Origin: Pelagibius litoralis
Lineage (GTDB): Bacteria; Pseudomonadota; Alphaproteobacteria; Kiloniellales; DSM-21159
DNA: 50,393 bases
Direction: 5' to 3'
Assembly: GCA_029287455.1 (NCBI GenBank)
Contig: JARFRB010000113.1
Location: forward strand, 1-50,393
In this document: positions 1,926 to 10,263 of the stretch, in pieces
Numbering within the stretch: the stretch's first letter is position 1
How the letters are laid out: each line of letters begins with the position of its first letter
Made by a program: the position numbers and the translations under genes
The notes under the pieces: generated by a model
Seen by the model: only the letters and a program-made list of their open reading frames with translations
What the model was told of the DNA's origin: nothing
Databases searched by the model: none

Positions 1926-3140
1926 ATGGAACGACACGACCACAAGGCATTTCGCGAAGGAACGCACCGGACCATATCGCCGAGCGAGACGGTTGCCCGT
2001 GTCCGGCCCTTGATGGGGCGGATGGGCATAACGCGCATCGCGAACGTGACGGGTCTAGATCGGATTGGTATTCCGGTAGTTCTCGCCTGCCGGCCCAATT
2101 CACGATCGCTTGCTGTGTCCCAAGGCAAGGGGCTCGATCTCGACGCCGCGAAAGCCTCGGCGCTCATGGAGGCGGTCGAGGGCTTCCACGCGGAGCGCAT
2201 CCGGCTTCCGCTTCGGCTTGGAAGCTACAGCGATCTCGCCGGCGATTTGCGGCTCGCCGACGTGGAGGGACTTCCGCGTCCACGCCACAGCGGATTTCAC
2301 CTCAATGTGCAGGTTCCCTGGATAGAGGGCCACGACCTCCTTACGGACAGTTCCATTTGGCTGCCCTACGAAGTCGTTCATACCAACTACACCTTGCCTA
2401 TGGTTCAGGGCAGCGGGTGTTTCGTCGCGAGCACTAATGGCTTGGCGTCTGGCAACTCAATGCCGGAAGCGATTTCCCACGGCATTTGCGAAGTGGTGGA
2501 GCGAGATGCCATAACGTTGTGGAACTGCTTGCCGAGAGCCCGGCGCGACAAGACCAGGATCGATCTCGATACGATCGACGACAAGAACTGCTCCCATGTT
2601 CTGGAGATGTTGCGCAAAGCGGGCCTAAAGGTCGCCGTCTGGGATGTGACAACGGACGTCGGCATTCCGTCCTTTTACTGCTTGATCGTCGATGGCAAAC
2701 GCGAATTGGCTCATTCCGGAGCGGGTGCCGGTACGCATCCGGCGCGGCAAGTGGCATTGCTGCGGGCGATGACGGAAGCCGTCCAGGTGCGCACCAACTA
2801 CATCACCGGAGCAAGAGACGATTTGCTGCCGGAAGAATACGCTGATCAAGGCATCGTGGAAAAATTCGACCGGGCTCAGGAGCTCATGGCCGCCACGCCA
2901 ACGCACGATTTCAAGGAGGTGGCGACCCACGAAGCCGACAAGATCTCGCTCGATATCGACTGGATGCTGGACCGGCTGGTTGCCGTGGGGATTGAGCAGG
3001 TGCTTGTTGTCGATCTCACCCGGCCCGAGTTTGAGGTTTCTGTGGCGAGGGTCGTCATTCCAGGGCTAGAAGGCCCCGACGACCACGATGCCTTCGTCCC
3101 GGGCCCCCGCGCGCGCGCCCTTGGCGGAGGGGTGTCATGA
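1926..3140 (+). CDS. YcaO-domain protein, probable peptide thioamidation enzyme
   Basis: YcaO enzymes use ATP to phosphorylate a peptide backbone amide, giving azolines, macroamidines or, with TfuA partners, thioamides. The 404 residues contain the family's nucleotide- and magnesium-binding segments: MEAVEGFHAE at 81-90, HGICEVVERDA at 185-195 and RAMTEAVQVRTNYITGARDD at about 280-299. The N-terminus (FREGTHRTISPSETVARVRP, 9-28) is typical of stand-alone YcaO proteins. The C-terminus lacks the PxPxP ending of many azoline-forming members. No E1/ThiF-like partner or dehydrogenase is nearby. The gene overlaps the TfuA gene by four bases (ATGA), which implies co-translation. The ribosome site before the ATG is weak. 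The family call is firm; thioamidation is inferred from the TfuA partner. Confidence 0.92.
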   Translation: MERHDHKAFREGTHRTISPSETVARVRPLMGRMGITRIANVTGLDRIGIPVVLACRPNSRSLAVSQGKGLDLDAAKASALMEAVEGFHAERIRLPLRLGSYSDLAGDLRLADVEGLPRPRHSGFHLNVQVPWIEGHDLLTDSSIWLPYEVVHTNYTLPMVQGSGCFVASTNGLASGNSMPEAISHGICEVVERDAITLWNCLPRARRDKTRIDLDTIDDKNCSHVLEMLRKAGLKVAVWDVTTDVGIPSFYCLIVDGKRELAHSGAGAGTHPARQVALLRAMTEAVQVRTNYITGARDDLLPEEYADQGIVEKFDRAQELMAATPTHDFKEVATHEADKISLDIDWMLDRLVAVGIEQVLVVDLTRPEFEVSVARVVIPGLEGPDDHDAFVPGPRARALGGGVS

Positions 3141-4513
3141 ACGTCGTCGTTTTCGTGGGGCCGTCATTACCCAAGGCGCGCGCAGAGGCTGAGGGCGAAG
3201 TCGTGGTTTTGCCTCCCGCTGCCGTGGGAGATATCTATAACGCCGCGCGGCGGGGCGCCCGCGCGATTGGCCTCATCGACGGATATTTCGAGGGTGTTCC
3301 CTCGGTTTGGCACAAGGAGATCCTGTGGGCGCTCAGGGAAGGAGTCGAGGTTTTCGGCGGCTCCAGCATGGGGGCGCTGCGGGCGGCGGAACTGCACGCC
3401 TTCGGCATGCGTGGCGTTGGCCAGATCTTCGAGTGGTTCCGCGACGGTTTATTGGAGGACGACGACGAGGTTGCCGTTCTGCACGGTCCGGCGGAGACGG
3501 GCTACCTTATGCTTTCCGAGCCGATGGTGAATTTTCGCGCCACTCTTGAACGGGCCAGCAAGGAGAACTTGATCGGATCGGACACGCGCGAGGCGCTGCT
3601 TAGTGTGGCCAAGCGCGTGTTTTACCAGGAGCGGACATGGGATGCCGTGCTCGCCCACCCGGATGTCGAGGCCGTGCCGGGTGACGAGCGGGAGAGGTTG
3701 AGCGCCTGGCTGCCGGAGGGGCGGATCGACATCAAGAAATCCGACGCGCTTTCCGTCCTATCGGCGGTGAAAACCGCTGCGGGACAGCTGGGTGTGCGGA
3801 CGGGAGCCTCCACGGATTTCCACTTCGAGTGGACCACCATGTGGGACAAGGTCGTTGCTTTCTCATCTCAAGGCGCGGGTCGGGCGGACGCCTCGATGAC
3901 GGCCGAAGAGAGCGCCGTACTCGAAGAATTGCGCCTTGATGCCAAGGGCTACGAGCGGGCGCGGGACCTAGCCGTGCTGCGAAAACTTGTGGACCGGGAA
4001 GCCCTGCGCGAGGGAATGGAGGTCGACCACGCGTCCAAGGTCGCGGCAATGCAGCGGTTTCGCGAAACCAACAGCTTGTTCAGACGCGCGGAACTCGATC
4101 GGTGGCTGTCGGAGCACGAAATGGGGGTCGAGGGCTTTGAAGACCTAATGGTTCAAGAAGCGCTTCTGGATTGGATGAGAACAGCCTTCGCGGCCGAACT
4201 CGACGATTGGTTGCTTGCCGAGGCGCGTATTAACGGCTCCTACGCGAGTTTGTCGGGCCGGGCTGGGGACAAGCAGCGGTTTTTGGCGCGGGGCGACTCG
4301 CCTGGCGTGGACTCCAACGCCAACTCGCCGTTACAATTACGTGCTTGGTATTTCGAGACACGGCTCGACCGCGAAATGCCAAGCGACATGGAATCATTTG
4401 CTCGGTCACTTGGCTTCGCCGATCTTCGCGCATTCGATCGCGCCCTGGAAAAAGAGTACTATTACGTTAAAGGAGGTTCCGGTCAGGCGAAAGCCGGCAA
4501 GTCGCCCGCGTAA
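3137..4513 (+). CDS. TfuA-like protein, partner of YcaO
   Basis: TfuA-like proteins accompany YcaO in thioamide formation, on methyl-coenzyme M reductase in archaea and on thioamidated RiPPs in bacteria; they are thought to help deliver sulfide. The hallmark motif GGSSMGALRAAELHAFGM lies near residues 74-91, in an N-terminal TfuA core of about 170 residues. The protein is 458 residues long, so about 280 residues form a mostly helical, charged C-terminal extension that I cannot assign. Such long TfuA forms occur in proteobacteria, as far as I recall. It starts inside the last codon of the YcaO gene and is followed after 92 bases by the metallopeptidase gene. The name traces to the trifolitoxin locus of Rhizobium. 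Confidence 0.9.
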   Translation: MNVVVFVGPSLPKARAEAEGEVVVLPPAAVGDIYNAARRGARAIGLIDGYFEGVPSVWHKEILWALREGVEVFGGSSMGALRAAELHAFGMRGVGQIFEWFRDGLLEDDDEVAVLHGPAETGYLMLSEPMVNFRATLERASKENLIGSDTREALLSVAKRVFYQERTWDAVLAHPDVEAVPGDERERLSAWLPEGRIDIKKSDALSVLSAVKTAAGQLGVRTGASTDFHFEWTTMWDKVVAFSSQGAGRADASMTAEESAVLEELRLDAKGYERARDLAVLRKLVDREALREGMEVDHASKVAAMQRFRETNSLFRRAELDRWLSEHEMGVEGFEDLMVQEALLDWMRTAFAAELDDWLLAEARINGSYASLSGRAGDKQRFLARGDSPGVDSNANSPLQLRAWYFETRLDREMPSDMESFARSLGFADLRAFDRALEKEYYYVKGGSGQAKAGKSPA

Positions 4514-4605
4514 TTTAAACATCGCAACACGGATTACGGGCGTACCCGGAAGGTTCGTAGCGGTAGCGGTAGTGGAGGCCCAGTTCAAGATCGAGGGAGT
4601 TCCAA

Positions 4606-5886
4606 TTGACGACCGATCACGCTGGTACGAGGTTCAAGCTCTATCCTCAGCTTCCTGGCTTGGAAAGCGACGAAGGCCCGGAGACTATTTGGGTGTCGCC
4701 GCCCCCCGGGGCGATCGGCCCTGGTCCCTCCGACGACAGGATGTACGTGGTTGAGCCTATCGGCAAGCAGCAGCCCTATGGCCCCGCGCCTGGGCGATAC
4801 GGCCGGACGGGATTGTACCTTCCTCCCTGGCGGGGTCCGGTGGTGCAACCGGCCCTGCCGGACGCGAACGGGCATTTCGATTACCTGGAGCTTGGAACGC
4901 CGCAGTTCGAGATGGCTCACATTTTCGGCAGCGTCCGCTTTACGCTCGACGTCTGGGAACGCTATTTCGGGCGGTGGATCGAATGGCATTTCCGGCGCGA
5001 TTTCAGCCGGTTGGAGATCGTCCATCTCCGCTCCCTCGATAATGCTTTTGCGGGCTTCGGCTCCATAGAAGTGGGGGCCCATTTCAGCAAGGACGCGCCG
5101 CCCGTGCCTTTCAGTCTCAGCTTCGATGTGCTGGCGCACGAGGTGGGGCACCTCATCATTTACAGCATGATCGGCTTGCCCGACCCGGAGGATATGGAGA
5201 GCGAGTACCTCGGCTTTCACGAATCCGCCGCGGACATGGTGTCGCTGATCACGCTTCTGCATTTCGACTCGGCCATTGAGGAACTGCTCAACAACAGCCG
5301 CGGCAATCTCTACACAGCCAATCGGCTCAATCGCTTCGCGGAGCTTTCCAATTTCAACCAGATGCGGATGGCGAATAACACGCGCACGCTCGCGGAGTTC
5401 GCCGAGGGTTGGAGCAAGGAGCATGATCTTTCAGAGCCCCTAACCGGCGCCTTGTTCGACGTATGGGTCGACGCCTTTCATGAAAGCTTGCTGGACGGTG
5501 GCTTGATTTCCGGTGCGCTCGAGGATTTTGCGGACGAAATGGATTATCAGCCGGGCGGGGTGGAAGCAATTCAAGGGCTATTCGACGAGGCCTTCTCCAG
5601 GGATCCGGCGGGCTTCAAGGCTGCGCTGGCGGAATCGCGTGATTACATGGGCTTCGCGCTTGCCGCTGTCTTTGAGCGATTGCTGCCGGAGAATCTGATT
5701 TACGAGGACGTGCGCAATGCCCTGCTGGACATCGATCAAGAGATCAATCGGGGGCGGTATCGACGGATTATCCTCAACAATTTCAATGCCCGGGCCATTG
5801 GGCTGGTCGGCGCCGGCCCGCGTCTGGCCCCACCGGATGAAGATAGCCATGCATTCTCGGCACGTACCATCGTTCCAGCAGGTTAA
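4606..5886 (+). CDS. HExxH zinc metallopeptidase (gluzincin-like) in the YcaO/TfuA locus
   Basis: This 426-residue protein carries a zinc-peptidase signature, LAHEVGHLII, with His178, Glu179 and His182. A second motif, HESAADMV, supplies Glu206 and Asp210. The ExxxD spacing equals the thermolysin Glu166/Asp170 arrangement, so a gluzincin-type active site is likely. There is no signal peptide or membrane segment, so the protein should act in the cytoplasm, as expected for a RiPP leader or core-releasing protease. The start is TTG at 4606, after a GGGAG ribosome site; an in-frame stop at 4570 rules out longer forms. The first 90 residues are rich in proline and glycine and match no domain I know. 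It could also be a non-proteolytic relative, but the catalytic residues are intact. Confidence 0.8.
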   Translation: MTTDHAGTRFKLYPQLPGLESDEGPETIWVSPPPGAIGPGPSDDRMYVVEPIGKQQPYGPAPGRYGRTGLYLPPWRGPVVQPALPDANGHFDYLELGTPQFEMAHIFGSVRFTLDVWERYFGRWIEWHFRRDFSRLEIVHLRSLDNAFAGFGSIEVGAHFSKDAPPVPFSLSFDVLAHEVGHLIIYSMIGLPDPEDMESEYLGFHESAADMVSLITLLHFDSAIEELLNNSRGNLYTANRLNRFAELSNFNQMRMANNTRTLAEFAEGWSKEHDLSEPLTGALFDVWVDAFHESLLDGGLISGALEDFADEMDYQPGGVEAIQGLFDEAFSRDPAGFKAALAESRDYMGFALAAVFERLLPENLIYEDVRNALLDIDQEINRGRYRRIILNNFNARAIGLVGAGPRLAPPDEDSHAFSARTIVPAG

Positions 5887-6093
5887 CCGGAGTCAGAGAG
5901 CATTAACTGGTCAAGTAACGAAAATACGAGGAGGTGCAAAACAAATTAAGTATAGAATAGCTGACTATCATGCCTAGAAAATGCTGTTGACTAGTCTCAA
6001 TTGTTAGTCTGTGGATCTGGGAATGGTGGAATATAATGCATTCCCCATTCTTAAGAAGGAATTCAAAATTTTGTCCAACAGGAGGCGGGAACA
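5887..6093 (+). promoter_or_regulatory. AT-rich leader region of the repeat-precursor gene with a consensus -10 box
   Basis: This 207-base gap is clearly richer in A and T than the flanking genes. It contains a perfect TATAAT at 6032-6037, about 56 bases before the precursor start, but no good -35 hexamer at 16-18 bases upstream. A strong AGGAGG ribosome site precedes the ATG at 6094. The precursor may therefore have its own transcript as well as read-through from the YcaO operon. Short frames here lack ribosome sites. Confidence 0.35.
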
Positions 6094-6717
6094 ATGCCGG
6101 AAACGCTTTTGAGTGCCTCGGAAATAAAACTCTACGGTAGGCTGATGATTGACATACAGCTGGTGGGCGGCGTTCATTCAGCCGGTAAAAGCACTAATGA
6201 ATTTGTAAAAGGCCAATTGCGGGGTAAAGACGCCACACCTAAGAATAAGCCAGGGTTGGCTAGAATATACGGATTTAGTTATGAGGGCCGCTACTACGAT
6301 CTGGGGAGCCCGGTGATCTTCTTGGTGCACGGCCCCGGCGAAAAGGCGGGTCCTCCCGCGCCAAAGCTGCGAAGCCATGGCAGTCCGAGCCAAGCGGGGA
6401 CCCAAGCAGCGGTGGGGGCTGTTCCGCCGGGCGATACCGACCATACGGGTGTCGCCGCGAAGGATTGGGACATGATGGATGACATCTTTATGTGGGACTA
6501 CGACAGGAGCGACTACAGCATGCGGCTGGATGTCCAATCGGGGATGCTGGACCAATTGCTGCTCGCACCCTTCTTCGATGATGACGGTGGCCCGGCCTAT
6601 AGTGGCGGCAAGGCTTACAGCGGCGGCAAGGCCTACAGCGGCGGAAAAGCATATAGTGGCGGCAAGGCTTACAGCGGTGGTAAGGCCTATAGCGGTGGCA
6701 AGGCGTACGGAGACTAG
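6094..6717 (+). CDS. Candidate multi-core RiPP precursor with six AYSGGK repeats
   Basis: I do not recognise this 207-residue protein as a named family. Residues 1-85 look like a folded or recognition region, including RIYGFSYEGRYYDL at 57-70. Residues 86-120 are a linker rich in Pro, Gly and Ser. Residues 122-160 are acidic and amphipathic (DMMDDIFMWDYDRSDYSM). Residues 168-203 are six perfect AYSGGK hexapeptides, ending in AYGD. There is no cysteine, signal peptide or membrane helix. The strong AGGAGG ribosome site and the position behind YcaO, TfuA and a metallopeptidase suggest a leader plus repeated cores. The actinobacterial thiovarsolin precursor is a known parallel, with repeated cores and a YcaO-TfuA pair. 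The coding call is firm; the precursor role is inferred. A structural Gly-rich tail is the main alternative. Confidence 0.75.
   Translation: MPETLLSASEIKLYGRLMIDIQLVGGVHSAGKSTNEFVKGQLRGKDATPKNKPGLARIYGFSYEGRYYDLGSPVIFLVHGPGEKAGPPAPKLRSHGSPSQAGTQAAVGAVPPGDTDHTGVAAKDWDMMDDIFMWDYDRSDYSMRLDVQSGMLDQLLLAPFFDDDGGPAYSGGKAYSGGKAYSGGKAYSGGKAYSGGKAYSGGKAYGD
6595..6702 (+). repeat. Six in-frame 18-bp repeats encoding AYSGGK
   Basis: Six adjacent 18-base units each encode Ala-Tyr-Ser-Gly-Gly-Lys without a single amino-acid change. The DNA differs between units at third positions: GCC/GCT/GCA for Ala, TAT/TAC for Tyr, AGT/AGC for Ser, GGC/GGA/GGT for Gly and AAG/AAA for Lys. Synonymous drift with an invariant peptide points to selection on the peptide rather than very recent slippage. 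A shortened unit, AYGD, follows and ends the gene. Confidence 0.95.
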
Positions 6718-7175
6718 GCGTCCCAACGCATGTGAATTCTCGTTGCGTCGGATGAATCAAGCTTGAAGCCAAGGCGCTTGTAAAGCTTGATCGCCTTGTT
6801 GCCGCGCACCATCGAAAGCAAGAGCGGTTTTCGCTTCGCTTCCGTCGCGCGCATGATGTCGAGGATAATGCTCGAACCGATTCCGTTTCTCTGGAATGCG
6901 GGCATCAGGTGAATCTGGTCTAAGTTGACGTCGCTGTCCGTTTCCGAGACTTGCACCCAGCCTATGTCCTCTCCATCAACTTGAACGACCTTGATCTGTC
7001 GGGTGTCAAAGTAAGACGCAAATTTCGAACGTGTTTCGGCCTCGTCCCACGCGCCCAAATCTGTCAGCAATGGTTTCATGCAATTGATATAAAGACGCTG
7101 CGCAAGCTCATAATCGCCCCTATTCGCGGGGCGAAGGCAGAATTCACAAGATGTCTTTCTACGCGATTCATCCAT
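6714..7175 (-). CDS. GNAT family N-acetyltransferase
   Basis: The 153 residues form one GNAT domain, which transfers an acetyl group from acetyl-CoA to an amine. Motif A is seen as LDQIHLMPAFQRNGIGSSII, with the Q/RxxGxG/A pyrophosphate loop (QRNGIG), and motif B as NKAIKLYKRLGFK. The substrate is unknown. The gene converges on the repeat precursor, and the two stop codons share the bases CTAG. It is therefore not in the same operon, though it could still act on the same product. It sits 27 bases downstream of the cyclase gene on the same strand. No strong ribosome site was found before the ATG at 7175. Confidence 0.85.
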   Translation of the reverse strand: MDESRRKTSCEFCLRPANRGDYELAQRLYINCMKPLLTDLGAWDEAETRSKFASYFDTRQIKVVQVDGEDIGWVQVSETDSDVNLDQIHLMPAFQRNGIGSSIILDIMRATEAKRKPLLLSMVRGNKAIKLYKRLGFKLDSSDATRIHMRWDA

Positions 7176-7202
7176 GGTAGTTTCGCGATAAAGGGAAGAT
7201 GC

Positions 7203-8966
7203 TTATTTCAGTCCCGCCTTTGCCAATCCTTCGAGCAATCGCTCTCGTGGTTCAGGATTCCGGTCGGGTGGAACATCTTTCCAATGGGCCAACGTGAATT
7301 CAGGTTGCGAGCGCAGCAGCTCTTTGGCGTAGCCCCGGGCCTCGCTTATGTTCCCGAGAAGTGCGTGACTGGCGGTCAGCATGCGCAGCCCTTCCGCTTT
7401 GTCATGCATCCGACCTAGCGTCCCAACCGCAGAGTTATAGTCGCCGAGGTCAAAGTATGCCTCGCCGAGATGCCACAGATACCAGTCGGGATAATAGGGG
7501 TTTAGGCGCATCGCGCGTTTGAGAAAAGTCACTGCCCGTTCGGTTTCTCCGTAGCAACAAACCGCGTGACCCATTTCCGCCAGCACGTCGGCATCGTTCG
7601 GATTTAGTTCTATCGCGCGCTCATAGGAAGCAAGTGACTCTTCATGCTGGCGTTTGTACAGACACGCTGAGCCGAGTGCCGCGTAGCCGCGTGAATCTGA
7701 GCAGTCAATTTCCACCGCCTTCTGGGCGAGGCTCACCGCGGTCTCCAGCTCCGGCTCAGGCGGGTGGGTCCAATTGAAACGCCAAGCGCGGGAATGGTTC
7801 CTCGACATGCCGGCGTAGCTGCGCGCGTTGATCGGGTCAATCTCGGCGGCCTGCTCGAACAAGTGCCGCGCCATCGTGTTCGCTTCGCGGGCGACGTGAA
7901 TGTTGAGTTCATCGCCCCGCAAGATCAGGCCGTAAGCTTGAATGTCTGTGCGCGCTATGCTCGCCAGCTTTTGGTTCTCGGCAATGTTGATCTCGATCGA
8001 CAGCCTGGAGGCAATCATCGAAGTGACTTCATCCTGAAACTCGAAGATATCTTCGAGGTCCCCGTCATAGCGTTCCGACCAGACAATCTTCTCGTTGCCC
8101 ACGTCTTGCAGCTGGATGTGGATCCGAACCTTGCGGCCCGCCCTCTGCAGACCGCCGGTCGCAAGATAGCGAACCCCGAGGTGTTCGCCGATCTGCTTCG
8201 TGGAAGCTTCATTGTTACGGAAAAGGAACGCCGAGTTCCTGGCGATGACGAAAAGATCGCGAAAGCGGGACACGCTGGTGATCAGATCCGCCGTTATCCC
8301 ATCGCAAATATGGCTGTCCTGCGGATCGCCGGACATGTTTTGGAGCGGCAGCACCGCGATCGAGTGTTTCGTCACGACCTGCGGGATTTCCTGGGGCGGC
8401 ATTGGGAGAGGCTGGGACGGCTTTTGAGGCCCTAAGTCCTCGACCGTGAAAACTTCAATCGGATCCGGGATATTCTTCAGGGCCTTTCGCCCCATTGAAT
8501 GCACCTTGATCTCGTCGATGCCACGGGCGTTCTGGCGCACCGCGTCCGTGATGCAGGTCCCGCCCGGCGGCGCCAGGCCCTGCACACGGGAGGCGACGTT
8601 GACGTGGTGGCCTTGAACCCCCGTCTCGTCAACCGTGATCTCGCCGAGGTTGATGCCGATCCGGAATACGATCTTTTCCTCTTCCGAGGCCCAGGCGGTT
8701 TGGTTGTGAAACTCTCTTTGAATGTCGACAGCGAATTTAAGCGATTGGGATGCGTTCACGAATGTCGCCAAGACTCCGTCACCGGCAACATGGATAACTT
8801 CCCCACCGTAATCGCCAACCAAGGATTTGATCAGTTTGATTGCTTGGTTCACCCGCACACGGGTTTGCTCTTCGTTCGCGCTCATCAATCGGCTGTAGCC
8901 GCAGATGTCTGCGAAGAGAACGGCCGACAAGCGCCGCTGCGGGAGTTTCGGTGCGCCCGGTTGCAT
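7203..8966 (-). CDS. Class III adenylate/guanylate cyclase with TolB-like and TPR domains
   Basis: The protein makes a cyclic nucleotide, most likely cAMP, from ATP. The catalytic domain covers about residues 10-175 of 587. Both metal-binding aspartates are present (FADICGYS with Asp20 and AGDGVL with Asp63), as is the NVASR motif supplying the transition-state Asn and Arg, so it should be active. Residues 200-340 resemble the TolB/FlgO-like domain common in these proteins (SIAVLPLQNMSGD...). The C-terminal half is a series of tetratricopeptide repeats for protein contacts. No transmembrane helix is visible. I prefer the ATG at 8966 to a TTG two codons upstream because GGAG then sits nine bases away. 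A Crp-family regulator lies about 600 bases upstream. Confidence 0.9.
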   Translation of the reverse strand: MQPGAPKLPQRRLSAVLFADICGYSRLMSANEEQTRVRVNQAIKLIKSLVGDYGGEVIHVAGDGVLATFVNASQSLKFAVDIQREFHNQTAWASEEEKIVFRIGINLGEITVDETGVQGHHVNVASRVQGLAPPGGTCITDAVRQNARGIDEIKVHSMGRKALKNIPDPIEVFTVEDLGPQKPSQPLPMPPQEIPQVVTKHSIAVLPLQNMSGDPQDSHICDGITADLITSVSRFRDLFVIARNSAFLFRNNEASTKQIGEHLGVRYLATGGLQRAGRKVRIHIQLQDVGNEKIVWSERYDGDLEDIFEFQDEVTSMIASRLSIEINIAENQKLASIARTDIQAYGLILRGDELNIHVAREANTMARHLFEQAAEIDPINARSYAGMSRNHSRAWRFNWTHPPEPELETAVSLAQKAVEIDCSDSRGYAALGSACLYKRQHEESLASYERAIELNPNDADVLAEMGHAVCCYGETERAVTFLKRAMRLNPYYPDWYLWHLGEAYFDLGDYNSAVGTLGRMHDKAEGLRMLTASHALLGNISEARGYAKELLRSQPEFTLAHWKDVPPDRNPEPRERLLEGLAKAGLK

Positions 8967-9281
8967 ACGCAATAGCTCCAGAGGATCGAATGCGCTCTTG
9001 CGGTATCGCAGGTCTTAATTCAGTGCTCAGAAGATAAGGCGCCCGAGTGAGAATATGCAACTCTGTCGGAAGGCTATTGCGGCCGGGTGCCCGCGGTCTC
9101 CGCTCGAATTCTTGGTTTATTGGCGATTTTTTGGGCGTGCGGCTGGCCTGTCGGCGCCGAAGCGGGCAAAAAAAGGCCCGGGAATCCCGGGCCTTGAGGT
9201 TTCACTGGGGAAGGTGGCCCGCGATCTGGGGGGAGATCGCGGACCGAGGCTCTCTCAGGGACGAGAGGTGCTTCAGCGCGG
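8967..9281. other. Gap between the cyclase gene and the 37-aa membrane peptide gene
   Basis: This 315-base stretch holds the presumed cyclase promoter and the strong terminator at 9168-9195, which is read on the minus strand. Several open frames cross it, but none has a ribosome site or a recognisable protein. I see no RNA gene. Confidence 0.5.
9168..9195 (-). terminator. Rho-independent terminator after the 37-aa gene
   Basis: Bases 9173-9183 and 9185-9195 form a perfect GC-rich inverted repeat (AAGGCCCGGGA / TCCCGGGCCTT). Read on the minus strand it is followed at once by seven T residues. It would end transcripts that come from the Crp-family gene and the small membrane peptide gene, before the cyclase gene. 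Confidence 0.85.
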
Positions 9282-9395
9282 TTAGAGATAACTTGCGAAG
9301 ATCGCGACCGCGTAGATCACGGCAAGAAGGCACCACGCCGAGCGAATTGGCCGCGTGGCGCTTTCCTGATTGGCTTCGGACCGTAAGGTCGACAT
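9282..9395 (-). CDS. 37-residue single-span membrane peptide
   Basis: This short frame reads MSTLRSEANQESATRPIRSA, then one hydrophobic helix (WCLLAVIYAVAIFASYL) that runs to the C-terminus. An AGGAG ribosome site lies nine bases before the ATG, and a clear terminator follows at 9168-9195, so it is very likely translated. The basic, soluble N-terminal half and C-terminal helix suggest a small inner-membrane protein with its N-terminus in the cytoplasm. I recognise no family. It lies downstream of the Crp-family gene on the same strand, 160 bases away, so it may share that transcript. Its role is unknown. Confidence 0.65.
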   Translation of the reverse strand: MSTLRSEANQESATRPIRSAWCLLAVIYAVAIFASYL

Positions 9396-9555
9396 CTTCA
9401 AAGGCTCCTATAACCGTCAAACTGCTGATTGCCATTTGATGAAGGCATAGGTCGGCACTCTTGCGATGTGGTTTTGCCCACAAGTTGTCGTTTTCTGAGA
9501 GATTTAGCGTTCTAAATCCCCAAGAAGCCGGCGAATTCCTTGTTTTGGGGTCTGA

Positions 9556-10263
9556 TCAGTCGGATTCGGGGCCCGATACGGATTCCACGAGTTGCTTCAG
9601 CGCGGCCAAATCCTTGATCAGCAAGGAGCGCCCCTTACGCTCCACCAAGCCGTTGATGGCGAGCACGCGAAGTTCCCGGGTCACAGCCTCCCTATGGGTG
9701 CTGATCTTGCTCGCGAGTTCCGCGTGGGTCGGCGACGGCCGGAGCAAGGCGATATTCCCCCCTTGGTCTTGTTGCTGGGCGAGACGCAAGAGCTCCGCAT
9801 GGAGGCGGCTCTTTACCGCGAGCGCGCTGAACTCATAGACGCGCTCGCTGAGTTGCCGAACCATTCCGACGAGGCTCGCCAACTGACGCTCGGCTACAAT
9901 GGGCTCGTTCAGCAGCAGGGCGCGGAAGCGGTCGGCAGGCATGGCGGCAACGAAGGCGTTCGTCAACGCTTCCACACTCGCCGAGCGGGGTTGACCGTCA
10001 ATCGCCGAGAGGTCCCCGAAAAGCTCTCCGGTCGAGATGTCCCGGAATAGGATCTCCTTTCCGCCGGCTGAGTAAATATGGGCCCGGAGCGTGCCTTCGA
10101 CGACGAAGAACACATCGGTTCCTTGGTCCAAATGGCCGACCACCACCTGCTGCGGCTTGACCGACAGCCATCGGCAGTTGCCCTCGAGATATTGCAAGGT
10201 GTGCGCTGGCAAGCCTTGTAGTAAATCGACCCCGGCGAGAGATCTTATTCTTCCCGTATCCAC
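9556..10263 (-). CDS. Crp/Fnr family transcriptional regulator
   Basis: The 235 residues comprise an N-terminal cyclic-nucleotide-binding beta-barrel (about 10-125), a dimer helix and a C-terminal winged helix. The recognition region is THAELASKISTHREAVTRELR. The phosphate-binding cassette reads GELFGDLSAIDGQPRSASV, with Arg93-Ser94 at the positions that contact cAMP phosphate in E. coli CRP. Asp84 replaces the usual glutamate. There is no N-terminal cysteine cluster, so it is not an oxygen-sensing FNR. Translation starts at GTG. A cyclase gene nearby makes cAMP a reasonable ligand, but this is inferred. It probably controls genes elsewhere; no target site was identified. Confidence 0.9.
   Translation of the reverse strand: MDTGRIRSLAGVDLLQGLPAHTLQYLEGNCRWLSVKPQQVVVGHLDQGTDVFFVVEGTLRAHIYSAGGKEILFRDISTGELFGDLSAIDGQPRSASVEALTNAFVAAMPADRFRALLLNEPIVAERQLASLVGMVRQLSERVYEFSALAVKSRLHAELLRLAQQQDQGGNIALLRPSPTHAELASKISTHREAVTRELRVLAINGLVERKGRSLLIKDLAALKQLVESVSGPESD

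Follow-up and report, generated by a model that had tools for sequence, protein, structure and literature searches.

An open reading frame (ORF) in the analysed stretch of DNA from Pelagibius litoralis (50,393 nucleotides in all, hereafter the window) ends in six exact YSGGKA hexapeptides followed by YGD, which together form the C-terminal 39 residues of its product. The peptide sequence of these repeats is under strong selection, the gene set around the ORF is conserved (Table 1), and homologous precursors carry other cores that differ from clade to clade. The explanation that we consider likely, if not secure, is that the ORF encodes a multi-core precursor, whose 168-aa leader would present the tail of six cores to the modifying enzymes. 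TfuA would supply or recruit the sulfide, and YcaO would most likely thioamidate one backbone amide in each repeat, the likeliest sites being Gly-Lys (directly ahead of the basic residue) or Gly-Gly. The thermolysin-like peptidase encoded upstream would cut between repeats, probably before Ala, and such cutting would release several identical short peptides from each precursor. These peptides may be N-acetylated by the neighboring GNAT, and their production or the response to them is probably linked to a cyclic nucleotide through a class III cyclase with TPRs.

Table 1. Features of the precursor locus in the window, and positions of a small gene that directly follows the precursor in several related loci (locus handle before the colon)
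Feature	Position	Strand	Evidence
YcaO-family ATP-dependent backbone-modifying enzyme, nearest the McrA-thioamidating type	1926..3140	+	PF02624, E 1.9e-81
TfuA partner with C-terminal extension of ~240 aa	3137..4513	+	PF07812, E 1.2e-48
Mpep, probable thermolysin-like (M4/M36) zinc metallopeptidase, candidate core-release enzyme	4606..5886	+	
Putative multi-core precursor ORF, 207 aa	6094..6717	+	translation, repeats, alignment
Leader domain, 168 aa, conserved, without known family	6094..6597	+	alignments
Six tandem YSGGKA cores, 18 nt each, then YGD	6598..6705	+	
GNAT N-acetyltransferase, convergent with the precursor	6714..7175	-	PF13508, E 2.6e-9
Class III adenylate/guanylate cyclase domain with TPR, candidate regulator/sensor	7203..8972	-	PF00211, E 7.8e-9; TPR
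Small gene	L046:9301-9783		
Small gene	L052:9980-10360		
Small gene	L056:8664-9029		
Small gene	L058:8661-9026		
Small gene	L059:8690-9085		
Small gene	L060:8970-9308		

Translation and comparison of the copies bore out the original prediction that the six hexapeptides are identical and that their codons vary at third positions, and the coordinates, strand and frame given for the ORF were correct, with 207 residues followed by a stop codon. Five different 18-mers encode the six copies, and each of the 14 deviations from the copy consensus is silent and falls at a third codon position; the array is also detected by TRF (period 18, 6.4 copies). Considering that 12 of the 51 non-stop single changes to the YSGGKA consensus are expected to be silent, the chance of 14 silent-only changes is ~1.6e-9 if changes are independent and random, or ~1.2e-7 if three deviations of two identical copies are counted once. 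When between-copy divergence was pooled over the window and 10 related loci (11 arrays), a pS of 0.771 was obtained against a pN of 0.0061, and this dN/dS-type comparison across repeats, which had been proposed with the prediction, reveals a core that is almost frozen. Slippage or conversion can also keep tandem copies alike, and the units are indeed short, tandem and variable in copy number, as expected of a functionless low-complexity repeat arising from replication slippage. However, silent divergence between copies is close to saturation, which speaks against recent homogenisation, and the silent-only divergence, the conservation across genera and the constant gene neighbors refute slippage noise as a full account, leaving it a next to negligible probability.

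The 10 related loci were identified by a pattern scan of genome contigs with the precursor and belong to Roseibium, Aminobacter, Anderseniella, Roseovarius (three loci), Roseobacter (two), Tateyamaria and a Hyphomicrobiales MAG. As GKAYSGGK is among the scan patterns, the search is biased towards loci that share the core; the whole-genome profile searches described below rest less on the core pattern. Comparison of repeat number and consensus across these relatives shows that YSGGKA is kept in all 10 loci, each with 5-7 units, and that substitutions affect one unit each in three of them, namely the first unit in L006 and L007 (HSGGKA, Tyr to His) and the last in L011 (YGGGKA, Ser to Gly). Free variation of the repeat residues among orthologues, named in advance as the outcome that would speak against selection, was thus not seen. 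Relative to the window precursor, the cores are 91-100% identical and the leaders 36-43% identical, and this difference, together with pN/pS and the silent-only divergence, upholds the claim that the peptide is under strong selection. The P. litoralis genome contains one copy of the precursor, and a profile search of 11 other genomes of the same family did not detect it.

The leader has no credible match in Pfam, NCBIfam or PDB sequences. A Pfam scan of 11 leader-family members returned three unrelated families in one member each (best E 0.069), and the precursor profile had no match among PDB sequences at E <= 1. Since the structure model built from 11 sequences is poor (pLDDT 40.5), the role proposed for the leader rests on its conservation.

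The genes next to the precursor are conserved as well. YcaO, TfuA and the peptidase are encoded beside it in 33 of the 36 precursor-first matches outside the window, a set comprising the contig pattern scan, the order, class and phylum samples, the order of genome G207 and the family of genome G213, with one false match (L024, see below) dropped. The three exceptions are two contig ends (L011 and G056) and genome G291, whose cassette is split: TfuA, the peptidase and a precursor with GMNV cores lie in L048, and YcaO and a cyclase with TPRs lie on another contig (L104). A cyclase (AC-TPR or AC-AAA-TPR) is also present in 33 of these 36 stretches, being missing from L100, the G056 contig end and G291, and it occurs in all 10 YSGGKA orthologue stretches, each of which also has a GNAT gene convergent to the precursor. 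No exporter was found among the gene clusters common to the YSGGKA loci. A Crp/Fnr-type regulator gene lies downstream of the cyclase in the window (9556-10263); it is not among the gene clusters shared with the orthologue loci.

Homologues of the peptidase were found on 134 of 72,556 plasmid records, 118 of which are from Rhizobium. Among the records read, one rhizobial group (L053-L059, L061 and L063) combines AC-AAA, YcaO, TfuA and the peptidase with a precursor that has a non-repeated PGxR tail. Three other Rhizobium loci (L051, L052 and L060) have AC-TPR, the peptidase and a precursor with SGGxxSR units; YcaO-TfuA is not adjacent to them, and YcaO was not found in searches of their plasmids. 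Therefore, modification is either not obligatory or supplied from elsewhere, and these three loci possibly represent a decoupled or decaying branch. The small gene listed in Table 1 (~110-160 aa) had no Pfam family in the three examples scanned (L046, L056 and L060) and could encode an immunity or carrier protein. Weak peptidase matches of at most 79 bits account for five of the 13 class genomes matched (L080, L081, G205, G304 and G341), and L080 and L081 have no YcaO, TfuA or precursor match. A weak peptidase match in Hymenobacter (L062, 27%), without a YcaO or TfuA match, was not counted.

Precursor profile searches of whole genomes extended the family beyond the YSGGKA core. Matches were obtained in 13 of 61 order genomes (12 after L024 was dropped), 5 of 385 genomes of the class sample and 4 of 398 of the phylum sample; the order of G207 gave 4 of 17, the family of G213 gave 7 of 248 and the order of G411 gave 1 of 43, each tally counting the window genome or the genome at the search centre. 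These tallies are lower bounds because scoring in the large samples was restricted to the best few candidates of each genome; a peptidase search of the same 385 class genomes uncovered precursors in G096 and G269 that the precursor search had missed. The dropped match (G016/L024) is a penicillin-binding protein that contains GKAYGEG by chance; it was removed from all counts.

None of the 26 precursors newly found by whole-genome profile search has the YSGGKA core; the leader is kept and the tail differs. Their tandem cores include (ASGQRVR)4, (RADM/RADL-xx)4-5, (SSRVDM)3, (VGRSDL)4, (SGARV)7-10, (SGAKV)6-7 and (GMNV)4, and the peptidase query added (SRAVMA)12 in G269. Rhizobium plasmid precursors have three or four SGGxxSR units, and the tails of some relatives have no repeats (e.g., HYSGKFTRAKKGGRHNNWSD or PGKRSPTMYASRMMMGHRGGRLGDS). 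The longest array seen is in the precursor at L078:8719-9594, where twelve RAVMAS-type repeats follow a longer acidic stretch. In total, 10 tandem core types were distinguished (YSGGKA and nine others), with units of 4, 5, 6 or 7 residues, and the precursors of the family are 149-291 aa long. A Lys or Arg followed by Ala, Val or Ser is found in nine of the 10 types, eight have exactly one Lys or Arg per unit, and in eight the basic residue is preceded by Gly, Ala or Ser, the exceptions being SGQRVRA, with Gln and Val before its basic residues, and GMNV, which lacks basic residues. In the other arrays, too, silent change outweighs replacement change, less starkly in most; the least constrained are the SGGxxSR array of L051 (pS 0.71, pN 0.47) and, second, the RADLSA array of L030 (pS 0.41, pN 0.21). 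An adhesive Tyr-Lys repeat was rejected as the role of the family, other cores being without Tyr and Lys.

Phylogenetic analysis of 48 peptidases (a quick method with SH-aLRT support only, midpoint-rooted) placed the YSGGKA loci in one clade with an SH-aLRT of 99. The tree left out L058 and L061 (identical in sequence to L057), L062, L080 and L081, as well as the loci without a peptidase (L011, L034, L036 and L104). The 16 core labels on 47 rows of this tree need 15 changes, the minimum possible, and its division at the midpoint root corresponds broadly to the two kinds of cyclase gene. Core type thus follows the peptidase tree, implying that cores are stable within a clade and different between clades; the tree is compatible with either replacement or gradual change as the origin of the between-clade difference and does not tell the two apart.

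With regard to the modification itself, the earlier statement that the protein contains no Cys was correct for all 207 residues, so a thiazoline or thiazole product of this precursor is ruled out, and none of the 13 relatives' and window tails counted contains Cys. The residue of each YSGGKA unit that could form an azol(in)e is Ser. The window YcaO scores 239.1 bits with the McrA-thioamidation model TIGR03266 against 135 bits with the SagD model TIGR03604, the McrA-model score being below the TIGR03266 equivalog cut-off of 365 bits, and its best solved relative is MJ1094 (6pe3, E 2e-35). All nine YcaO proteins scanned (the window and eight others) score higher with the McrA model than with the SagD model, all of them below 365 bits. 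The ycaO and tfuA genes are adjacent, with a start/stop overlap of 4 nt. TfuA scores 216.9 bits with NF033432, below the equivalog cut-off of 235.2, and matches 6xp8 in the PDB over residues 3-213 (E 1.2e-36); TfuA reportedly liberates sulfur from thiocarboxylated ThiS (PMC8939145). The C-terminal extension of the window TfuA has a weak TIGR04500 match at 279-362 and can be aligned in many relatives; the TfuA proteins of L047, L049 and L053 are only ~240-260 aa in all. An E1-like or ocin-ThiF azoline partner was not detected among the cassette proteins scanned (six with Pfam, six with NCBIfam). A thioamide is therefore the favoured chemical guess for the YSGGKA product, the nearest relatives of YcaO and TfuA being the McrA pair and no azoline-type partner having been detected in the cassette genes scanned.

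An alternative is that YcaO forms oxazolines at the repeat Ser with loss of water. Azoline formation from Cys, Ser and Thr is known for characterised YcaO enzymes (PMC5589413), and Ser occurs in every window unit and in most other core types. However, TfuA stands here in place of the partner family expected for azoline formation, and all nine YcaOs resemble the McrA type more than SagD. The strongest comparative argument comes from the GMNV tail, which has no Ser, Thr or Cys, so that an azoline could not form there, with the caveat that the YcaO of this precursor is not adjacent. We thus regard oxazolines as very unlikely.

For the favoured thioamide, the original prediction was more specific: from the absence of Cys and the Gly-Gly in each repeat, it proposed thioglycine at about 13 candidate glycines, a number that agrees with our count from the first repeat onward. 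A thioamide did gain support from the McrA-like YcaO and TfuA. As a rule for the family, however, thioglycine fails, because the same enzymes adjoin cores without Gly: it is absent from the consensus unit in three of the 10 types (RADLSA, SSRVDM and SRAVMA), and Gly-Gly occurs in only two (YSGGKA and SGGxxSR). Thus, the lack of Cys and the presence of Gly-Gly alone do not point to thioglycine, and conservation cannot choose among Ser, Gly and Lys, which are all nearly invariant in the YSGGKA clade. For YSGGKA itself, thio-Gly would be likely because both residues before Lys are Gly; Gly-Gly is kept in all units of the 11 YSGGKA precursors, and the nearest known enzyme to this YcaO makes the thioglycine of McrA. 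Against this, the thioamide of thiovarsolin sits at Pro-Arg (PMC6511847). Thioglycine with up to two modified Gly per repeat, which is a sub-case of the thioamide explanation and does not exclude its other forms, is given slightly less than an even chance. Our first guess for the site in YSGGKA is Gly-Lys, based on the recurrent step from Lys or Arg to Ala, Val or Ser and on analogy to the Pro-Arg site of thiovarsolin.

Release of the cores would require a peptidase. In the peptidase family, H178, E179, H182, E206 and D210, which form an HExxH...ExxxD pattern, are invariant in all 23 aligned sequences, E206 being the putative zinc ligand. The window peptidase itself has no Pfam or NCBIfam family; among 23 members, Peptidase_M4 was matched in four (best E 0.029) and Reprolysin_4 in six (best E 0.004). 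A profile of the family found weak matches only among PDB sequences, the best being angiotensin-converting enzyme (E 0.055), and a Foldseek search with the structure model (pLDDT 48, mostly helical) found nothing in the PDB at E <= 0.001. In a VIA comparison, the model matched five M36/M4 chains with Z 8.3-9.8, and the first chain outside M36/M4 reached Z 4.4. As VIA cautions that Z under ~13 may reflect a common arrangement for helical models, the thermolysin-type fold is graded as probable. Enzymes of the thermolysin type prefer Leu, Phe, Val, Met or Ala on the C-terminal side of the cleaved bond, and this would suit the Lys-Ala, Arg-Val and Arg-Ala steps of the cores. Considering how widely the basic-to-small step recurs among core types and that the peptidase gene lies directly upstream, the Lys-Ala junction, already proposed as the natural cut between units, is a plausible cleavage site.

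It is also conceivable that the tail works as a repeat domain within a modified protein that stays intact, and that no peptides are released. The ribosomal protein uL16 is modified as an intact protein, as is McrA (PMC13063428 for uL16); the N-terminal part here, at 168 aa and well conserved, does not resemble a short disposable leader, and the tails without repeats would fit such a role. On the other hand, tails that differ between clades in sequence and unit length under a conserved N-terminal part are typical of leader-core precursors, and the peptidase is present in all 45 stretches with both YcaO and TfuA, all of which were fetched via precursor or peptidase matches. We consider this intact-protein role improbable, and the release of peptides from a multi-core precursor is preferred.

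Acetylation of the released peptides is plausible by analogy with the N-acetylated thiovarsolin. L047, L098 and L026 likewise have a GNAT gene next to the cyclase gene; the GNAT model of the YSGGKA clade matched two of 38 stretches, and the GNAT of L026 was spotted by eye and confirmed with Pfam. Acetylation of Lys was rejected as the general role of these GNATs, since they also occur beside cores with Arg (L047 and L026).

The constant cyclase suggests a role in regulation or signalling. A broader idea, which we put forward as speculative and doubtful, is that these are alphaproteobacterial peptide signals: lineage-specific words of 4-7 residues, each encoded in many copies, marked with sulfur, cut by the peptidase and coupled to the cyclase, with the core as the specificity code. 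The yeast alpha-factor, which is cut from a repeat precursor, may be likened to such a reading of exchangeable words. If it were true, the sulfur mark introduced by YcaO-TfuA would guard signal peptides against proteolysis.

YcaO-TfuA clusters are very common in Proteobacteria, and the family described here is a coherent one, in which precursors can be recognised and a conserved peptidase gene and a regulator accompany them. The variety of cores found with one enzyme pair amounts to a natural experiment on site choice by YcaO-TfuA: locating the sulfur in YSGGKA, SGARV, SRAVMA and GMNV would reveal whether the choice depends on Gly, on the position before a basic residue or on the leader. No description of the precursor or the cassette was found in titles and abstract openings among the literature matches listed. 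According to a 2021 survey, all thioamidated YcaO-TfuA RiPPs then known were from Actinobacteria (PMC8120280). The same survey reports more than 500 TfuA clusters from Rhizobium, and the rhizobial branch of the precursor family is probably among them; the words "repeat" and "cyclase" are absent from the main text of the survey. For precursor calling it used RiPPER with standard settings, the default window of which is 20-120 aa, so precursors of 149-291 aa would be missed; this suggests that a whole family is hidden by the customary 120-aa limit on precursor mining.

Three known systems resemble parts of this one. Fungal repeat peptides processed by Kex2, which cuts at basic sites, belong to a eukaryotic, secretory system with another protease and no YcaO. 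They likewise yield many short peptides from one repeat precursor (PMC7329392). The family and the McrA system differ in the scores of the window YcaO and TfuA, which lie below the equivalog cut-offs. In the McrA system, a single Gly of a large metabolic enzyme is modified, with no leader and no repeats. By NCBIfam and PDB matches, the TfuA/YcaO pair of that system in methanogens (PMC5589413) is the closest to ours. The precedent for repeated cores with YcaO-TfuA is the thiovarsolin system of Streptomyces varsoviensis (VarA/VarY/VarT; PMC6511847), and the precursor family itself appears undescribed. Thiovarsolin is a very short product with a basic C-terminal residue, an acetylated N-terminus and a thioamide in place of the Pro-Arg amide; its core is APR/GPR in imperfect repeats, whereas YSGGKA has neither Pro nor Arg, and its cluster, as described, has no specific protease, unlike the present cassette with its conserved peptidase gene (PMC6511847). 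A VarO-like heme oxygenase was not detected by Pfam among the seven proteins encoded at 1926-10263. Compared with thiovarsolin, the family described here has a much larger precursor and a cyclase, and was found only in Alphaproteobacteria in our searches.
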